A DNA stretch of 64,000 nucleotides from NCBI RefSeq assembly GCF_000337735.1, contig NZ_AOHX01000026.1, positions 26,696 through 90,695 of the forward strand, given 5' to 3'. Position numbers and translations under genes: made by a program. Shown here piece by piece: positions 39,179 to 47,024 of the stretch. A model generated the notes under the pieces. The model searched no databases, was not told the origin of the DNA, and worked only from the letters and a program-made list of their open reading frames with translations. The DNA is from Natronorubrum sulfidifaciens JCM 14089 (GTDB lineage Archaea; Halobacteriota; Halobacteria; Halobacteriales; Natrialbaceae). Position 1 is the stretch's first letter, and every line of letters starts with the position of its first letter.

Positions 39179-39679
39179 ATGTTACGTTCGTTCGACGGAA
39201 CGGAGCCACAGGTCGCTGACTCGGCGTACGTCGACGAGGCGGCGGTCGTCATCGGCGACGTCGTCATCGAGGCGGACGCCAGCGTCTGGCCGAACACGAC
39301 GCTTCGAGGCGACCACGGACAGATCGTCGTCGGCGAAGGCGCAAACGTCCAGGACAACGCCGTCCTCCACGAGGACGCCGTCCTCGAGCCGTACTCGACG
39401 GTCGGCCACAGCGCGATTGTCCACGACGCGACCGTCGCCGAGCGCGCGCTGGTTGGCATGAACGCGGTGGTTCTCGACGGCGCCCACGTCGGCGAGCGTG
39501 CCGTCGTCGCGGCCGGCAGCGTCGTCACCGAAGACACCGAGATCCCGCCATCGACGCTTGTCGTCGGCGCGCCCGCCGAGGTGAAAACCGAGATCGACGA
39601 CCCACATCTCGGTGCGACGGCCGACCGCTACGTCGAACTGTCGACGAAACACGCCGAGACATCCGACCGACTCGAGTAA
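39179..39679 (+). CDS. Gamma-class carbonic anhydrase-like protein
   Basis: A 166-residue left-handed beta-helix protein of hexapeptide repeats (VVIGDVVIEADASVWPN...). The three zinc ligands of the gamma class are kept: H64 (NAVLH), H77 (STVGH) and H82 (AIVH), along with RGDHG near residue 43-47. It would hydrate CO2, or be one of the acyltransferase-like relatives. The start MLRSFDGTEPQVADSAY is the normal family beginning; an upstream ATG at 39140 gives 13 extra residues and cannot be excluded. Confidence 0.87.
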   Translation: MLRSFDGTEPQVADSAYVDEAAVVIGDVVIEADASVWPNTTLRGDHGQIVVGEGANVQDNAVLHEDAVLEPYSTVGHSAIVHDATVAERALVGMNAVVLDGAHVGERAVVAAGSVVTEDTEIPPSTLVVGAPAEVKTEIDDPHLGATADRYVELSTKHAETSDRLE

Positions 39680-40310: not shown

Positions 40311-40601
40311 ATGAGCGATGACGTTGAAACCACGACCGTCTCGATCAGCACCGACGATGACACGACCGACGAAGTGACGATTCCGTCCGGTCTCATCGAC
40401 CTCGTCGCGGAGGGCGACCAGACCGACGCCGAAACGATCGGCGACGTCGCGCTGCTGTCGTTCGCCAGCCGCGCCCACCACCTCGTCCACCACGGACAGG
40501 GCGCAGACGAAGACCTCGAGGCCCAAGAAGCCCGCATCATGGACCTGTTCGAGGAACGCTTCGGCGTCACCTACGGCGAAGCAACCGGCCACCAGCACTG
40601 A
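40311..40601 (+). CDS. Small haloarchaeal hypothetical protein
   Basis: A 96-residue acidic protein starting MSDDVETTTVSISTDDDTTD, then VTIPSGLIDLVAEGDQ and a helical segment with several His (SFASRAHHLVHHG, GVTYGEATGHQH at the end). The His-rich parts could bind metal but no known site is matched. It follows the previous gene by 73 bp in the same direction and may share its transcript. Confidence 0.6.
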   Translation: MSDDVETTTVSISTDDDTTDEVTIPSGLIDLVAEGDQTDAETIGDVALLSFASRAHHLVHHGQGADEDLEAQEARIMDLFEERFGVTYGEATGHQH

Positions 40602-40717: not shown

Positions 40718-43700
40718 TTATAGTATCAACTGAATCCCGTCGGTCGCGACCGCGGTGAACGGATCGTTCTCGAACGGATCATCGTCGAACGGGCTGTCAT
40801 CACTCGGGTCCTCCTCGAACGGGCTGTCATCGCCCGGGTCCTCCTCGAACGGGCTGTCATCACTCGGGTCCTCCTCGAACGGGCTGTCATCGCCCGGGTC
40901 CTCCTCGAACGGGCTGTCATCACCCGGGTCCTCCTCGAACGGGCTGTCATCACCCGGGTCCTCCTCGAACGGGCCGTCATCGCCCGGGTCCTCCTCGAAT
41001 GGGCTGTCATCGCTCGAGTCGTCTTCCACCGGCGGCTCCGGCTCATCGGCCGCGTCGACCGTCACCGTCGTCTCGGCGAGGGCGTCCTCACTCGAGACCG
41101 TCACCGGATAGTCGCCGGGCTCGAGCGTAGCGGTATCCGCAGTCAGCGTCAGTGTCGTCGACTCATCGGGCTCGAGCGAGACCGTGTCGGTATCGACGAC
41201 GGCGTTGCCGACGGCCAGTTCGATCTCCTGTGTTCCCGCCTCACCGCCGACGTTTTCGATCTCGGCGTCCACCTCGAGTGGCTCACCCTGTTCAAGAGGG
41301 TCGTTTGTGCCCGTGATCGAGACGGCGAACTCGGCTGGTTCGCTCGGCGCGAGTTCACCGGCCGTCGCCGTTGCAGCGGGTTCGACGGCGTCTGCGTCGT
41401 AGTCGTATCTGCTCATGTCGACCGCCCAGACGAGCCGTTCGTCGTCGGTTTCGGGCGTCCACTCGACGGTGAACGTGTTCGTCCCGGGCTCGAGTTCGTC
41501 GACTGGTTCGTCGGCCGTCGCCCCCTCGAGGAACTCGCTGTCGACCACCAGCGTCGCGTCGTTCGGGTTCTCGTAGCCGAAGGTGACGTCGATGCCGTCC
41601 TCGCTCGGCGTTGTCTCTTCGACGCTCAGCGTCGGCAGTTCGGGGCGAACCTCCGCGAGACACTCGCTGGCGTCGGGGTTCGGATAGTCGATCTCGCCCG
41701 GCACCGCATCGGGCGAGGCGAAGCCGGTGATCGCGACGCCGAAGTCGCCCTCAGGAACGGTGACGGTCGCGCCGGCATCGGTCTCGGTGACAGTGAACTC
41801 CTCGCCGGGCTCGTAGGTAATCGTCCCCTCGAACGGTGCCTCGACGTCCTCGCCGACCGTAATCGCGTACTCGCCGAGCGTGTTGCCAAAGCCACCCGAC
41901 TCGTAGAAGCCGGTGGCGACAATGACCGTGTCACCCTCGTCGAACGACCCCGTCACCGCAGCCTGTGAGCAATCGATGAACTCGACATCGAACGTCGCCG
42001 GATCGCCGTCGAGCGTGTACTCGATCGGCTCAGTCGCGAGTTCGTCACCGGCCGTGTCGACGATGGCGATCTCGAGTGTCGTGTTCGCTTCGAGTGGGGG
42101 CTCGAGGGCCAGCGATTCGAACTCGGCGGTCTCAGTGGCCTCGAAGACCTCGCTTTCGCCGCGTTGCTCGCCATCCTCGTCGATGACGATGAGGCGATAG
42201 TCGACGCCAGCGCTTGCTTCGTCGACGACGGCCGTCTCACCATCGCCCGTCTGGTCGCTGACCTCGAGGGTCGCTTCCGGCTCGGGTTCGTCCTCGAGCG
42301 TGTACTCGATCGTCTCGGTCGCGAGTTCGTCGCCCTCGCTGTCGACGACCGCAACGTCGACGGTCGTGGATTCCTCGAGCGGCGGCTCGAGGGCGAGGTC
42401 TAGCCCAGTGACCGTCTCCTCGACCTCGAATGTGTCGCTCTCGCCGGACGTGTCGTCAGCGGTGGCCGTGACGGTGTACTCGACGTCTGCGCTCGCCTCA
42501 TCGACGACGACCGTCTCGCCATCGCCCGTCTGGTCGCCGACCTCGAGCGTCGCTTCCGGCTCAGCTTCGTCGGGCTCGTCGGGCTCGTCGATCTCACCGA
42601 CAGTGACGAGTGCCGTGTCGAGGACCGGTGCTCCGACAGGAGTGACGTACGGCTCGTCATCGGTACCATCGCTCGCTGCGTACTGGAACGTCTCGTCGCC
42701 GGTCGTCTCGTGGTGGACCACCGCGACGAGTGGCTGGTCGTCTTCGATCGGTGTCTCGAGGTCAATCTCAACCTCGCTGTGCGCGCCGGGCTCGAGGTAG
42801 TCCGACGAGCCGAGCACGCCGGCCGGGTCGGCGACGGCATCGCCGTCGTAGATCGCCACGAAGCCGCCCTCCGAGAGCTCGACGCTATCGACGACGACAC
42901 TGTCGCCGTCACGCTCCTGATCGGCGAACGTGATCATCGCCTCACCCTCGAGTTCGTCGATTGTCTCGACGCGCTGGGTGAGTTCGACCGCGAGGAACTG
43001 GCTGAGTTCGACGTCGTCGTCGATCTCCTCTTGAACGGCGTACGCGGTCGCATCTGCCGCCGAGTCCTGTGTCAGAACCTGCAGCTGCGTGATGCTAATT
43101 CGCTGGTACTGCACTGCTCGAGCTGTCTCCTGACAGGCGGCGCTGGCGGCGAACTGAAGCTGTTCCACGGTCGCCTCCTGATGCTGGACCAGCACGCCGC
43201 TTGCGCTGCCGGCTGCGAGCACTTGCACCTGCGTGACGTCGATGACCTGTTTCTGGATCACAGCACCCTCGCCAGCACCGAACGAAGCGGCCTGAATCTG
43301 TTCGACGTTGACGACCTGTTGTTGGATCGCCGACTCGAGCGCTCCCTGTGACGCACCGATGGCGGCGTGTTGGATCTGCGTGATCGAAACCTCCTGTTGT
43401 TGGACGAGCACGCCACCAGCCGCCCCGTCAGCCGCGGCCTGAATCTGCTCGACAGTCGCCTCCTGACTCTGTGTTATCGACCCCTTGGCCGCACCGAAGG
43501 ATGCCTCCTGAATCTGCGTGATCGAGATCCGCTGGACCTGCTCGATGCTGATCGACTGGACCTGTATCAACGCCCCCTTGCTCGCCCCGTGTGCGGCCGC
43601 CTGCGTCTGCTCGACCGTCACCGTCTGTTGCTGGACGAGCGCGCCCTTTGCAGCCCCGGTTGCGGCCTTCTGGATCTGCTTGACCGTCGCCCGCTGGTAC

Positions 43701-44563
43701 TGTTCGACCTCGACGCGCTGTTCTTGTTCGAGGCCGAGCTCGCTGCTTCCCTCGAGCGCCCCTGCGGATGCGCCCGCGGCTGCGTACTGGACGTGCTCGA
43801 GGGTGACTTGCTGGCGCTGTTCGACCGTGATCTGCTGATACTGCTCGAGGACGCCGTAGGCCGCACCCTGTGCGGCCTCCTGAATCTTCGGTGCGTGGGT
43901 GATCTCTTTGTCACCGGCTTCGCTCGCTGCACCGGCAGCGGCACCGCGAGTTGCGACCTGAATCTGCTCGACGGTGACGCGCTGTTCTTGGGCGACCGCG
44001 CCGTGTGCTGCGCCCCACGTCGCACTCTGCATCTGGCTCGCTGAGACCGTCTGATACTGGGCGAGTGCGCCGTCGGTCGCCCCGCTGACGGCAAACTGGA
44101 CCTGCTCGGCTTCGACCTGCTGGGCCTGCATGAGCGAGCCGTGGACTGCCCCCGTCGTCGCCTCTTGGACCTGCTCGACGTCGGCTTGCTGATGTTGGAC
44201 AACTGACTCGCGTGCGCCCTCGAGCGCCGCCTCGCGCTGCTCTTGGCTCACCTCGACACCCTGAGACTGGGCGAGTTCGATCCCGTCGTCGACGCCGTCC
44301 TCGACGGCATCGTCCTGTTGAACCGACAGCGATGGCTGTGGACCGCTGTTCGGTGCATTCAGTTCCGCTATCGGCTCCAGCGAGACGAGCTCGAGGTCGC
44401 TTGCAGCCTGCGGGCTGTCGGCGGCCGCCCCCTCGGCGCTCACACCGTTTGGCTGGTCGCCGTCGGGCACGCCGCTACTCCCGCCGAGTGCCGGTACCGC
44501 CAGAACGCTCGTTACCAGCAACGCGGCGACGAGCGCGACGGCGACCGACCCCCGTCCGCTCAT
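40718..44563 (-). CDS. Large secreted repeat protein with DUF7282/CARDB-like domains
   Basis: A 1281-residue exported protein. Residues 1-28 are a Sec signal (GSVAVALVAALLVTSVLAVP). Residues about 95-515 are some sixteen units of about 23 residues, built as x-Q-x-V-x-VEQIQxAAxGAAxGALxQ. A beta-rich region (about 520-860) has repeated acidic modules (twice DQTGDGET-VVDEASA). A DUF7282-like domain follows (about 870-1000, FDVEFIDCSQAAVTGSF), then CARDB-type Ig domains and an Asp/Pro/Phe 10-residue tandem repeat at the C-terminus. No PGF-CTERM or other membrane anchor is visible. It is likely a surface or extracellular protein; partner unknown. It is monocistronic. Confidence 0.8.
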   Translation of the reverse strand: MSGRGSVAVALVAALLVTSVLAVPALGGSSGVPDGDQPNGVSAEGAAADSPQAASDLELVSLEPIAELNAPNSGPQPSLSVQQDDAVEDGVDDGIELAQSQGVEVSQEQREAALEGARESVVQHQQADVEQVQEATTGAVHGSLMQAQQVEAEQVQFAVSGATDGALAQYQTVSASQMQSATWGAAHGAVAQEQRVTVEQIQVATRGAAAGAASEAGDKEITHAPKIQEAAQGAAYGVLEQYQQITVEQRQQVTLEHVQYAAAGASAGALEGSSELGLEQEQRVEVEQYQRATVKQIQKAATGAAKGALVQQQTVTVEQTQAAAHGASKGALIQVQSISIEQVQRISITQIQEASFGAAKGSITQSQEATVEQIQAAADGAAGGVLVQQQEVSITQIQHAAIGASQGALESAIQQQVVNVEQIQAASFGAGEGAVIQKQVIDVTQVQVLAAGSASGVLVQHQEATVEQLQFAASAACQETARAVQYQRISITQLQVLTQDSAADATAYAVQEEIDDDVELSQFLAVELTQRVETIDELEGEAMITFADQERDGDSVVVDSVELSEGGFVAIYDGDAVADPAGVLGSSDYLEPGAHSEVEIDLETPIEDDQPLVAVVHHETTGDETFQYAASDGTDDEPYVTPVGAPVLDTALVTVGEIDEPDEPDEAEPEATLEVGDQTGDGETVVVDEASADVEYTVTATADDTSGESDTFEVEETVTGLDLALEPPLEESTTVDVAVVDSEGDELATETIEYTLEDEPEPEATLEVSDQTGDGETAVVDEASAGVDYRLIVIDEDGEQRGESEVFEATETAEFESLALEPPLEANTTLEIAIVDTAGDELATEPIEYTLDGDPATFDVEFIDCSQAAVTGSFDEGDTVIVATGFYESGGFGNTLGEYAITVGEDVEAPFEGTITYEPGEEFTVTETDAGATVTVPEGDFGVAITGFASPDAVPGEIDYPNPDASECLAEVRPELPTLSVEETTPSEDGIDVTFGYENPNDATLVVDSEFLEGATADEPVDELEPGTNTFTVEWTPETDDERLVWAVDMSRYDYDADAVEPAATATAGELAPSEPAEFAVSITGTNDPLEQGEPLEVDAEIENVGGEAGTQEIELAVGNAVVDTDTVSLEPDESTTLTLTADTATLEPGDYPVTVSSEDALAETTVTVDAADEPEPPVEDDSSDDSPFEEDPGDDGPFEEDPGDDSPFEEDPGDDSPFEEDPGDDSPFEEDPSDDSPFEEDPGDDSPFEEDPSDDSPFDDDPFENDPFTAVATDGIQLIL
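40782..41020 (-). repeat. Eight 30-bp tandem repeats (DDSPFEEDPG units)
   Basis: The 30-bp unit recurs with exact spacing; the core GGGCTGTCAT (plus strand) starts at 40791, 40821, 40851, 40881, 40911, 40941, 40971 (one variant) and 41001. It lies wholly inside the large secreted gene and encodes acidic DDSPFEEDPG/S units, so it is a coding minisatellite that could vary in copy number. Confidence 0.9.
43020..44280 (-). repeat. About sixteen 69-bp Gln/Ala coding repeats
   Basis: Within the large secreted gene, units of about 23 codons share VEQIQ, AAxGAAxGAL and a closing Gln. Some are longer where an extra strand (for example ISIEQVQR before ISITQIQ) is inserted. The DNA copies have diverged, unlike the nearly exact C-terminal minisatellite. 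Confidence 0.8.
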
Positions 44564-44992: not shown

Positions 44993-45580
44993 ATGGCAAC
45001 AGAACAAAATTCGGTGGATCTCGTCGATGGCGATATCGTTCGTCAGTTCGCTCGTGCGGCATTGCTCGCCGCACTACTCGGCGCGGCAGCGCCCGTCTCG
45101 ATACCAATCCCGCTGTCGCCGGCCCCGATCACGCTGCAGGTACTGTTCGTCTTCCTCGCCGGCCTCGTCCTGGGGCCGGTGTGGGGACCCACCTCGATTC
45201 TACTCTATCTCGCCGCAGGAGCCATCGGGCTGCCTGTCTTCTCGGGGATGAGTGCGGGACTCGGCGTGCTGGTCGGCAACACGGCCGGCTACCTCTGGTC
45301 GTACCCGCTCGCCGCGGGCCTGATCGGGCTCATGGTCCATCGAGACACCGAGCTTCGAGATCCCGCTGCCGTTTCGCTTCCGGTCGTCATCGTCGCGCTC
45401 GTCGTCGGGACGATCCTCATCTACGGCATGGGCACCGGCTACATGGCCTGGCTCCTCGAGCTCGGGGCGTGGGAGGCGATTTCCCTCGGTGCGCTGCCGT
45501 TTCTCCCCGGCGAACTGCTCAAGATAGCCGCGGCGATCGCCATCGTCAAAAGCGGCCGTATCAAGCCGATCCAGTCGTGA
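44993..45580 (+). CDS. bioY: BioY, substrate-binding subunit of biotin ECF transporter
   Basis: A 195-residue membrane protein with about six helices. The BioY landmarks are present: ALLGAAAPVSIPIPLSPAPI, TLQVLFVFLAGLVLGP, and GAIGLPVFSGMSAGLGVLVGNTAGYLWSYP. It captures biotin in the membrane and couples to the ATPase/T subunits encoded just downstream (25 and 9 bp gaps). Haloarchaea often lack full biotin synthesis, making uptake important. The start is an ATG close to a TATA-like element. Confidence 0.93.
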   Translation: MATEQNSVDLVDGDIVRQFARAALLAALLGAAAPVSIPIPLSPAPITLQVLFVFLAGLVLGPVWGPTSILLYLAAGAIGLPVFSGMSAGLGVLVGNTAGYLWSYPLAAGLIGLMVHRDTELRDPAAVSLPVVIVALVVGTILIYGMGTGYMAWLLELGAWEAISLGALPFLPGELLKIAAAIAIVKSGRIKPIQS

Positions 45581-45605: not shown

Positions 45606-46310
45606 ATGATCGAGTTTCGCTCCGTCTCGTACGCCTTCGACGACGTCCCCGTCCTCGAGGACGTCTCACTGTCGATCGACGACGGCGAGTTCGTCCTCTT
45701 CGCGGGAGCCAACGGCAGCGGGAAGACGACGCTGTTGCGCCACTGCAATGGCCTCCTCGAGCCAGACTCCGGCGAAGTCCTCGTCAACAGCACGCCCGTC
45801 GCGGATGACTTGATCGCCGCCCGTTCAGCCGTCGGCATGGTCTTTCAACACCCTCGTGACCAGTTCGTCGCCGCGACGATCGGTGCTGACGTCGCCTTCG
45901 GGCCCGAAAACCTCGGTCTCGCACGCGAGGAGATCGATCACCGGGTCGAGGCCGCTCTCGAGGCCGTCAACATGGCCGGTCGCAGCGACGAGCGTATCGA
46001 CGCGCTCTCGGGTGGCGAACAGTCGCGCGTGGCCATCGCGGGCGCACTCGCGATGGACCCGGACCATCTCGTCCTCGACGAACCCTTTACCGGACTCGAC
46101 GACCCCGCTCGCCGATCCGTCCTCGAGCGCCTCGAGTCGCTCGCAGCCGACGGCACCGGGATCTTGCTGACGACTCACGACCTCCGTGACGTCGTCGACC
46201 TCGCCGACCGTATCGTCGCCATGAAAAACGGCGAGATTGTCGTCGACGACCCGCCTGAACGCGCACTCGAGGCACTGGCGGGACTCGAGGTTCGCGTCCC
46301 CGACACCTGA
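45606..46310 (+). CDS. bioM: Biotin ECF transporter ATPase
   Basis: A 234-residue ABC ATPase: Walker A GANGSGKT (34-41), Q-loop GMVFQHPRDQFVAATIG with the DQ pair typical of ECF-type ATPases, signature LSGGEQ, Walker B HLVLDEPF and H-loop TTHD. It powers transport by the BioY/BioN complex. It stands between bioY and the T-component gene in one operon. Confidence 0.92.
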   Translation: MIEFRSVSYAFDDVPVLEDVSLSIDDGEFVLFAGANGSGKTTLLRHCNGLLEPDSGEVLVNSTPVADDLIAARSAVGMVFQHPRDQFVAATIGADVAFGPENLGLAREEIDHRVEAALEAVNMAGRSDERIDALSGGEQSRVAIAGALAMDPDHLVLDEPFTGLDDPARRSVLERLESLAADGTGILLTTHDLRDVVDLADRIVAMKNGEIVVDDPPERALEALAGLEVRVPDT

Positions 46311-46319
46311 CCACTGACG

Positions 46320-47024
46320 ATGCTCACCTACGATCCCGACGACACGCTCGCCCACCGGCTCGATCCCCGCACGAAGCTGGCCGTCCAGATCGGCTTCGCG
46401 ACGACGGCGCTGGCACACACCAGCCCGCGGGCGCTGTTCGTCCTCTCCATCGTCGCCGGCTTGATCCTGTTCAGCGCTCGTGTCCCACTGCTCGAGGCGC
46501 TCTCTGCTTACCGCTTCGCCCTGGTCATCCTCGCCATCGCGCCGTTGGTCGCCGGGCTGACGCTGGGGTCGCCGTGGTTCGATCTCACGGACGCCAGCGC
46601 CTCCGGGCGGGCAAGCTACCGGGTCCTGCTCATTTTGCTCGTCAGCGCGGCCTACATCCGCTCGACCCCGGTTCGTGCCTCGCGGGCCGCGATCCAGCGG
46701 ACGATCCCCGGCAAGCCCGGACAGGTGCTTGGCATCGGCGTCGCGCTCGTCTTTCGGTTCCTGCCGGTCTTGCAGGCCGACCTCCGGACGATCCGTGATG
46801 CGATGGCTGCCCGTCTGGGCGACGAGCGCGGCGTCGTCGAGCGCGCCAGCACGCTTTCGCTGCTCGGTCTTTCGCGGGCGTTCGACCGGGCCGATCGACT
46901 CGCACTCGCCTTGCAGGCACGCTGTTTCGCCTGGAATCCGACGCTGCCCACGCTGGCGTTTTCGCGGGTCGATTACCCCGTGCTCGCGGGAGCGCTCGTG
47001 CTCGCGCTTTCGGCTGCGCTGTGA
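46320..47024 (+). CDS. bioN: ECF transporter T component (BioN/EcfT)
   Basis: A 234-residue membrane protein of the CbiQ/EcfT family, with about five helices, the N-terminal TLAHRLDPRTKL signature, and two Ala-Arg coupling motifs near the C-terminal half (AMAARLGDERG and LALQARCF) that contact the ATPases. It completes the biotin transporter. Its stop is 4 bp from the stop of the convergent reductase gene. Confidence 0.9.
   Translation: MLTYDPDDTLAHRLDPRTKLAVQIGFATTALAHTSPRALFVLSIVAGLILFSARVPLLEALSAYRFALVILAIAPLVAGLTLGSPWFDLTDASASGRASYRVLLILLVSAAYIRSTPVRASRAAIQRTIPGKPGQVLGIGVALVFRFLPVLQADLRTIRDAMAARLGDERGVVERASTLSLLGLSRAFDRADRLALALQARCFAWNPTLPTLAFSRVDYPVLAGALVLALSAAL

Follow-up and report, generated by a model that had tools for sequence, protein, structure and literature searches.

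The 64,000-nucleotide window from Natronorubrum sulfidifaciens encodes an exported protein whose N-terminal half carries sixteen Gln/Ala-rich units, and this conserved repeat domain represents a so far undescribed family among the exported proteins of haloarchaea. Covariation among homologous units supports, in silico, both a strand and a helix within each unit and a periodicity of two units along the array. The domain is widespread and highly conserved, is absent from the libraries searched, and comes from a group in which surface and matrix proteins have been little characterised. Its fixed unit number and strand/helix covariation make the fold directly testable, and once the family has a name, many proteins now labelled "hypothetical", WP_276239771.1 of Halobaculum marinum among them, could be annotated.

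Architecture of the exported repeat protein

The minus-strand frame running from 44563 to 40718 opens with ATG and translates into 1281 residues with no internal stop, while the plus strand of the same interval contains several stops (Table 1). An N-terminal hydrophobic signal sequence, read by eye, appears to be of the Sec type, without a twin-arginine motif. Translation and signal sequence thus agree with the sequence-only reading, which had described an exported protein of this length without giving a strand. Residues 29-84 form a variable linker.

Table 1 Features of the repeat protein and its locus (positions in the window)
Feature	Position	Strand	Basis
CDS, 1281-aa exported repeat protein (P0001)	40718..44563	minus	translation from ATG; orthologues
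Signal peptide, residues 1-28 (approximate)	44480..44563	minus	sequence reading
Gln/Ala repeat domain with N-terminal cap, residues 85-513	43025..44311	minus	16 units at 103-513; no family match
DUF7282 domain, residues 542-654	42602..42940	minus	Pfam E 2.5e-34
Tandem pair of similar domains of ~90 aa, residues 666-755 and 761-853, probably beta-rich	42005..42568	minus	sequence reading
C-terminal region, residues 856-1175, probably beta-rich, CARDB-like stretch 1080-1165	41039..41998	minus	Pfam, sub-threshold
30-bp tandem array, 7.6 copies, encoding acidic tail (DDSPFEEDPG)n	40785..41011	minus	tandem repeat analysis
DUF7545, downstream neighbour; adjoins bioY where the repeat gene is missing	40311..40601	plus	
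bioY, biotin ECF transporter S component, divergent neighbour upstream	44993..45580	plus	
ECF transporter ATPase	45606..46310	plus	
ECF transporter T component (CbiQ family)	46320..47024	plus	

The period of 23 is well above chance: its autocorrelation score is 0.90, and in 200 shuffles no period between 5 and 40 scored higher than 0.08. A unit profile built from homologues detects exactly 16 units within residues 103-513, starting at residues 103, 127, 150, 173, 196, 222, 253, 292, 315, 346, 369, 392, 418, 441, 464 and 489. The earlier count of sixteen 23-residue repeats therefore stands as to unit number and period. The exact 23-residue spacing holds for about half of the units only; other spacings range from 24 to 39 residues because of insertions of 1-3 residues and extra strands of eight residues, for example ITVEQRQQ. 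The unit consensus reads V-T/S-V-E-Q-I-Q-x-A-A-x-G-A-A-x-G-A-L-x-Q-x-Q-x, in which Q5, Q7, A9, G12, G16, Q20 and Q22 are near-invariant in orthologues. Position 2 is T, S, N or D in 82% of cases, resembling a helix N-cap. For an exported domain of a halophile, the repeat domain is low in acidic residues (12% D+E versus 27% in the adjoining region).

Downstream of the repeats, the DUF7282 match scores 118 bits against a Pfam gathering score of 27, placing the domain in that family. Both ~90-residue domains are kept in orthologues. The CARDB-like stretch is a near miss (21.0 bits against a Pfam cut-off of 22.7), and no known adhesion family exceeds its Pfam cut-off in the protein. A 1256-residue ORF of the same genome shares 50% identity with residues 851-1175 and contains further copies of the CARDB-like domain. 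The final stretch, residues 1176-1281, consists of 44% Asp/Glu and less than 6% Ile, Leu and Val, and none of the Natrialbaceae orthologues scanned has a C-terminal hydrophobic segment, in keeping with the earlier remark that no membrane anchor is visible. The copies of the underlying 30-bp array match at 94%, and the encoded acidic tail, which also contains Pro and Phe, varies in sequence and length between close orthologues.

Residues 85-513 gave no match in Pfam, NCBIfam, PHROGs or the PDB sequences. An alignment of the family likewise retrieved nothing from the PDB and nothing significant from Pfam, and Rfam had no match around the locus. The repeats thus could not be placed in a named family of these libraries, in agreement with the sequence-only reading. 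Our literature search returned nothing relevant on a described haloarchaeal Gln-rich surface repeat and no published work on DUF7282 (PF23951). The haloarchaeal DUF7282 proteins are one of the nearest known points of contact: the repeat protein has one such domain well above the Pfam cut-off, and relatives in two further families of the order also combine it with the repeats. DUF7282, however, spans only residues 542-654 and has no assigned function, whereas the repeats form a domain of their own that has not been described.

Distribution and conservation of the repeats

Matches were present in 104 of the 125 Natrialbaceae genomes, the closest named orthologue being that of Natronorubrum thiooxidans (81% over the protein). 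Among 34 orthologues, defined as those recognised by a conserved motif, 30 have 16 units. No part of the protein is more conserved than the repeats: their median identity in this set is 0.77, whereas the linker reaches 0.23 and the remaining domains of the mature protein 0.50-0.67. The constant unit number and the high conservation indicate a fixed structural element and not a freely varying array. The protein is absent from several genera and is thus not generally essential. Within Natrialbaceae, Natrinema gari J7-2 is genetically tractable, having been edited by means of its endogenous CRISPR system (PMC10433800).

An order-wide draw yielded matches in 123 of 394 genomes, belonging to Natrialbaceae and, patchily, to four other families; one carrier outside Natrialbaceae is Halobaculum (Haloferacaceae), where the protein is annotated as hypothetical. 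A draw across the phylum produced no convincing relative beyond the order. A weak match there (genome G213, E 6e-5) proved on reading to be rich in Gly and Asn and to carry another kind of repeat, and was rejected. No relatives were found on viral contigs, and one plasmid record, from Halobaculum, matched.

The relatives carry about 9-22 units in the N-terminal part of the protein, in most cases after an N-terminal hydrophobic or Tat-like segment. The modules joined to the repeats include DUF7282, TSP3 and a right-handed beta helix, as well as, judging from the sequence, a CAP-like domain. Some relatives end in a C-terminal hydrophobic membrane tail terminating in Arg. In one ORF of 2292 residues (L076), read by eye, the repeats are joined to Asp-rich repeats resembling TSP3 and, at the C-terminus, to a CAP/SCP-like domain that has a membrane tail. 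L072 and L073 are shorter members with a twin-arginine signal and a Gly/Asn-rich tail, without DUF7282. L077 and L078 are short paralogues; they have only a handful of units, and their tail consists of QSQSVDVSQSQ motifs. The L078 match (genome G008) spans one TGA.

Covariation within and between units

Structure prediction of the repeat region, proposed as a check in the sequence-only reading, was carried out in two AlphaFold runs. Residues 55-663, run with three sequences (two of them added orthologues), reached a mean pLDDT of 37, with helices at 81-172 (pLDDT about 50-82) and the remaining repeats unresolved. Residues 81-218, for which a pseudo-alignment of 15 shifted repeat arrays served as input, gave an all-strand model with a pLDDT of 51.5, four of the five models staying below 40. 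The two runs are unconfident and mutually inconsistent, and neither is usable for assigning the fold.

Covariation was calculated by mean-field DCA on 1887 distinct units. Across positions 19-7, mean couplings were 1.12, 1.06, 0.64 and 1.09 at separations of 2, 4, 6 and 8, but 0.27, -0.11 and -0.13 at separations of 3, 5 and 7. Across positions 8-18, couplings were 0.93 and 1.87 at separations of 3 and 4, compared with 0.00 and 0.03 at 2 and 5. Both patterns, even separations in 19-7 and i+3/i+4 in 8-18, recur in the Natrialbaceae orthologues alone and in all other sequences alone. Furthermore, the entropy power of positions 20-7 is concentrated at 180 degrees. These results support a unit made up of an extended Gln-rich strand, from position 19 to about 2-7, and a helix reaching position 18, the support being covariation and not a structure. 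The alternation of strand and helix described earlier is thereby supported. Couplings also cross the boundary between the two elements (3-6, 3-7, 4-8, 5-8 and 6-13), and together with the N-cap-like position 2 they leave room for a helix that starts already at position 3.

In neighbouring units, a number of the strongest coupled pairs are antiparallel (17-10, 9-18, 10-15, 9-16, 14-9), while pairs linking every second unit are mostly parallel (16-14, 12-9, 17-14, 15-15). Both sets of inter-unit couplings lie far above pairing shuffles. Over the top 20 pairs, however, the correlations are weak (-0.05 and 0.29); some pairs do not fit, and the orthologue subset shows the signal less clearly, so the inter-unit geometry is a lead only. 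Units separated by an even gap are more alike than those separated by an odd gap in 122 of 141 proteins, although the Wilcoxon p-value, like the coupling z-scores, is inflated because the proteins and units are phylogenetically related. Taken together, the antiparallel neighbours, the parallel second neighbours and the even-gap likeness favour a 46-residue structural repeat of two units over a simple one-unit solenoid. Of the beta/alpha solenoid originally suggested, the strand and helix in each unit are backed by covariation, but a one-unit solenoid is not established.

Alternative folds and comparison with known repeats

An all-helical fold is doubtful but accounts for several of these observations without changing the proposed role. 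It would place one helix in each unit (3-19), joined by Gln-rich loops, in an alpha-solenoid of 46-residue hairpins. The composition of position 2 with hydrophobic positions 1 and 6, resembling an N-cap with a hydrophobic staple, the Pro at position 3 of terminal units, the helices predicted at 81-172 and the antiparallel/parallel order of the inter-unit couplings would all fit such an arrangement. It is opposed by the even-separation couplings and period-2 entropy, which extend from 19 through 7, by the preservation of the period-2 pattern across the 8-residue insertions, and by the all-beta outcome of the 81-218 run.

The Q-x-Q-x-V-x-V-x-Q-x-Q alternation and the 180-degree entropy signal would suit a polymerising, amyloid-like or silk-like subunit of an extracellular fibre, with its Gln-rich strands in intermolecular cross-beta ladders. 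The low acidity of the domain and the single low-confidence all-beta model agree with this, as does the staining of Haloferax volcanii biofilms by Congo red and thioflavin T (PMC4180959). We nonetheless consider such a fibre unlikely: the helical covariation at 8-18 appears in both subsets, the longer AlphaFold run places helices at 81-172, and the constant unit number with strong unit-specific conservation suggests a defined monomeric fold. The curlin motif is also missing, with no occurrence in P0001 or any homologue collected.

Curli subunits CsgA and CsgB are secreted proteins with Gln-containing repeats of about 20-23 residues, similar to the unit length seen here. They differ by their S-x5-Q-x-G-x2-N-x-A-x3-Q motif, which none of the homologues collected here has, and by the helical covariation in the A/G half of the haloarchaeal unit. 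Beta/alpha solenoids such as leucine-rich repeats share units of 20-30 residues in which an extended segment alternates with a helix, as well as invariant amide residues with the potential to form ladders. In contrast to these, the couplings of the repeat protein suggest a two-unit structural repeat, and its repeats matched neither leucine-rich nor other repeat families in Pfam or the PDB sequences.

Proposed role

We give even chances to the view that this Natrialbaceae protein is structural, exported by the Sec route and either soluble or associated with the surface, with a rigid N-terminal rod of 16 units serving surface architecture, cell-cell contact or a matrix. Each Gln/Ala unit would consist of an extended, Gln-flanked segment and then a helix of small residues (G/A). 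Packing between units may involve the A/G-lined faces of the helices (9, 12, 13 and 16), and ladders of the invariant Gln residues (5, 7, 20 and 22) could hold the units together. The rod would present DUF7282, Ig-like modules and the acidic tail, so that the whole may act as an exported rigid spacer or scaffold that displays beta-rich modules on the surface of the cell or within a matrix. The rod shape, the Gln ladders, the adhesive or matrix role and the surface or secreted location are what we infer, the last from the signal sequence and the accompanying modules. The earlier suggestion of a fibre, matrix or adhesin role is plausible. Only tentatively do we extend the proposal to a new extracellular fold of Halobacteriales, in which a solenoid with a 46-residue two-unit repeat, Gln ladders and, in Natrialbaceae, a fixed number of 16 units would be the standard N-terminal rod of surface or matrix proteins.

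The locus and the biotin transporter

DUF7545 downstream, and bioY with two further ECF genes upstream, are kept in nearly all Natrialbaceae loci examined. The repeat gene divergently adjoins these transporter genes in most of the loci, across many genera, an arrangement that could suggest a protein serving bioYMN, for instance as an extracellular biotin scavenger or docking protein. We regard this as very improbable. Other flanking genes, such as DUF7545, are also conserved around the repeat gene, which marks the linkage to bioY as background synteny. Where the repeat gene is missing, DUF7545 and bioY lie about 200-500 bp apart in unchanged order (at least three genera), so the repeat protein and the biotin transporter are not obligate partners. 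One genus includes four genomes with the repeat gene located elsewhere and the DUF7545-bioY pair still together. The gene thus occupies a stable site but is itself dispensable, and its link to biotin is weak. Neither bioYMN nor the flanking genes were found beside the relatives in other families, and ECF transporters are not known to use an extracellular binding protein. At 39179-39679, beside DUF5799 and DUF7545, lies a gene for a hexapeptide-repeat protein that is probably gamma-carbonic anhydrase-like.
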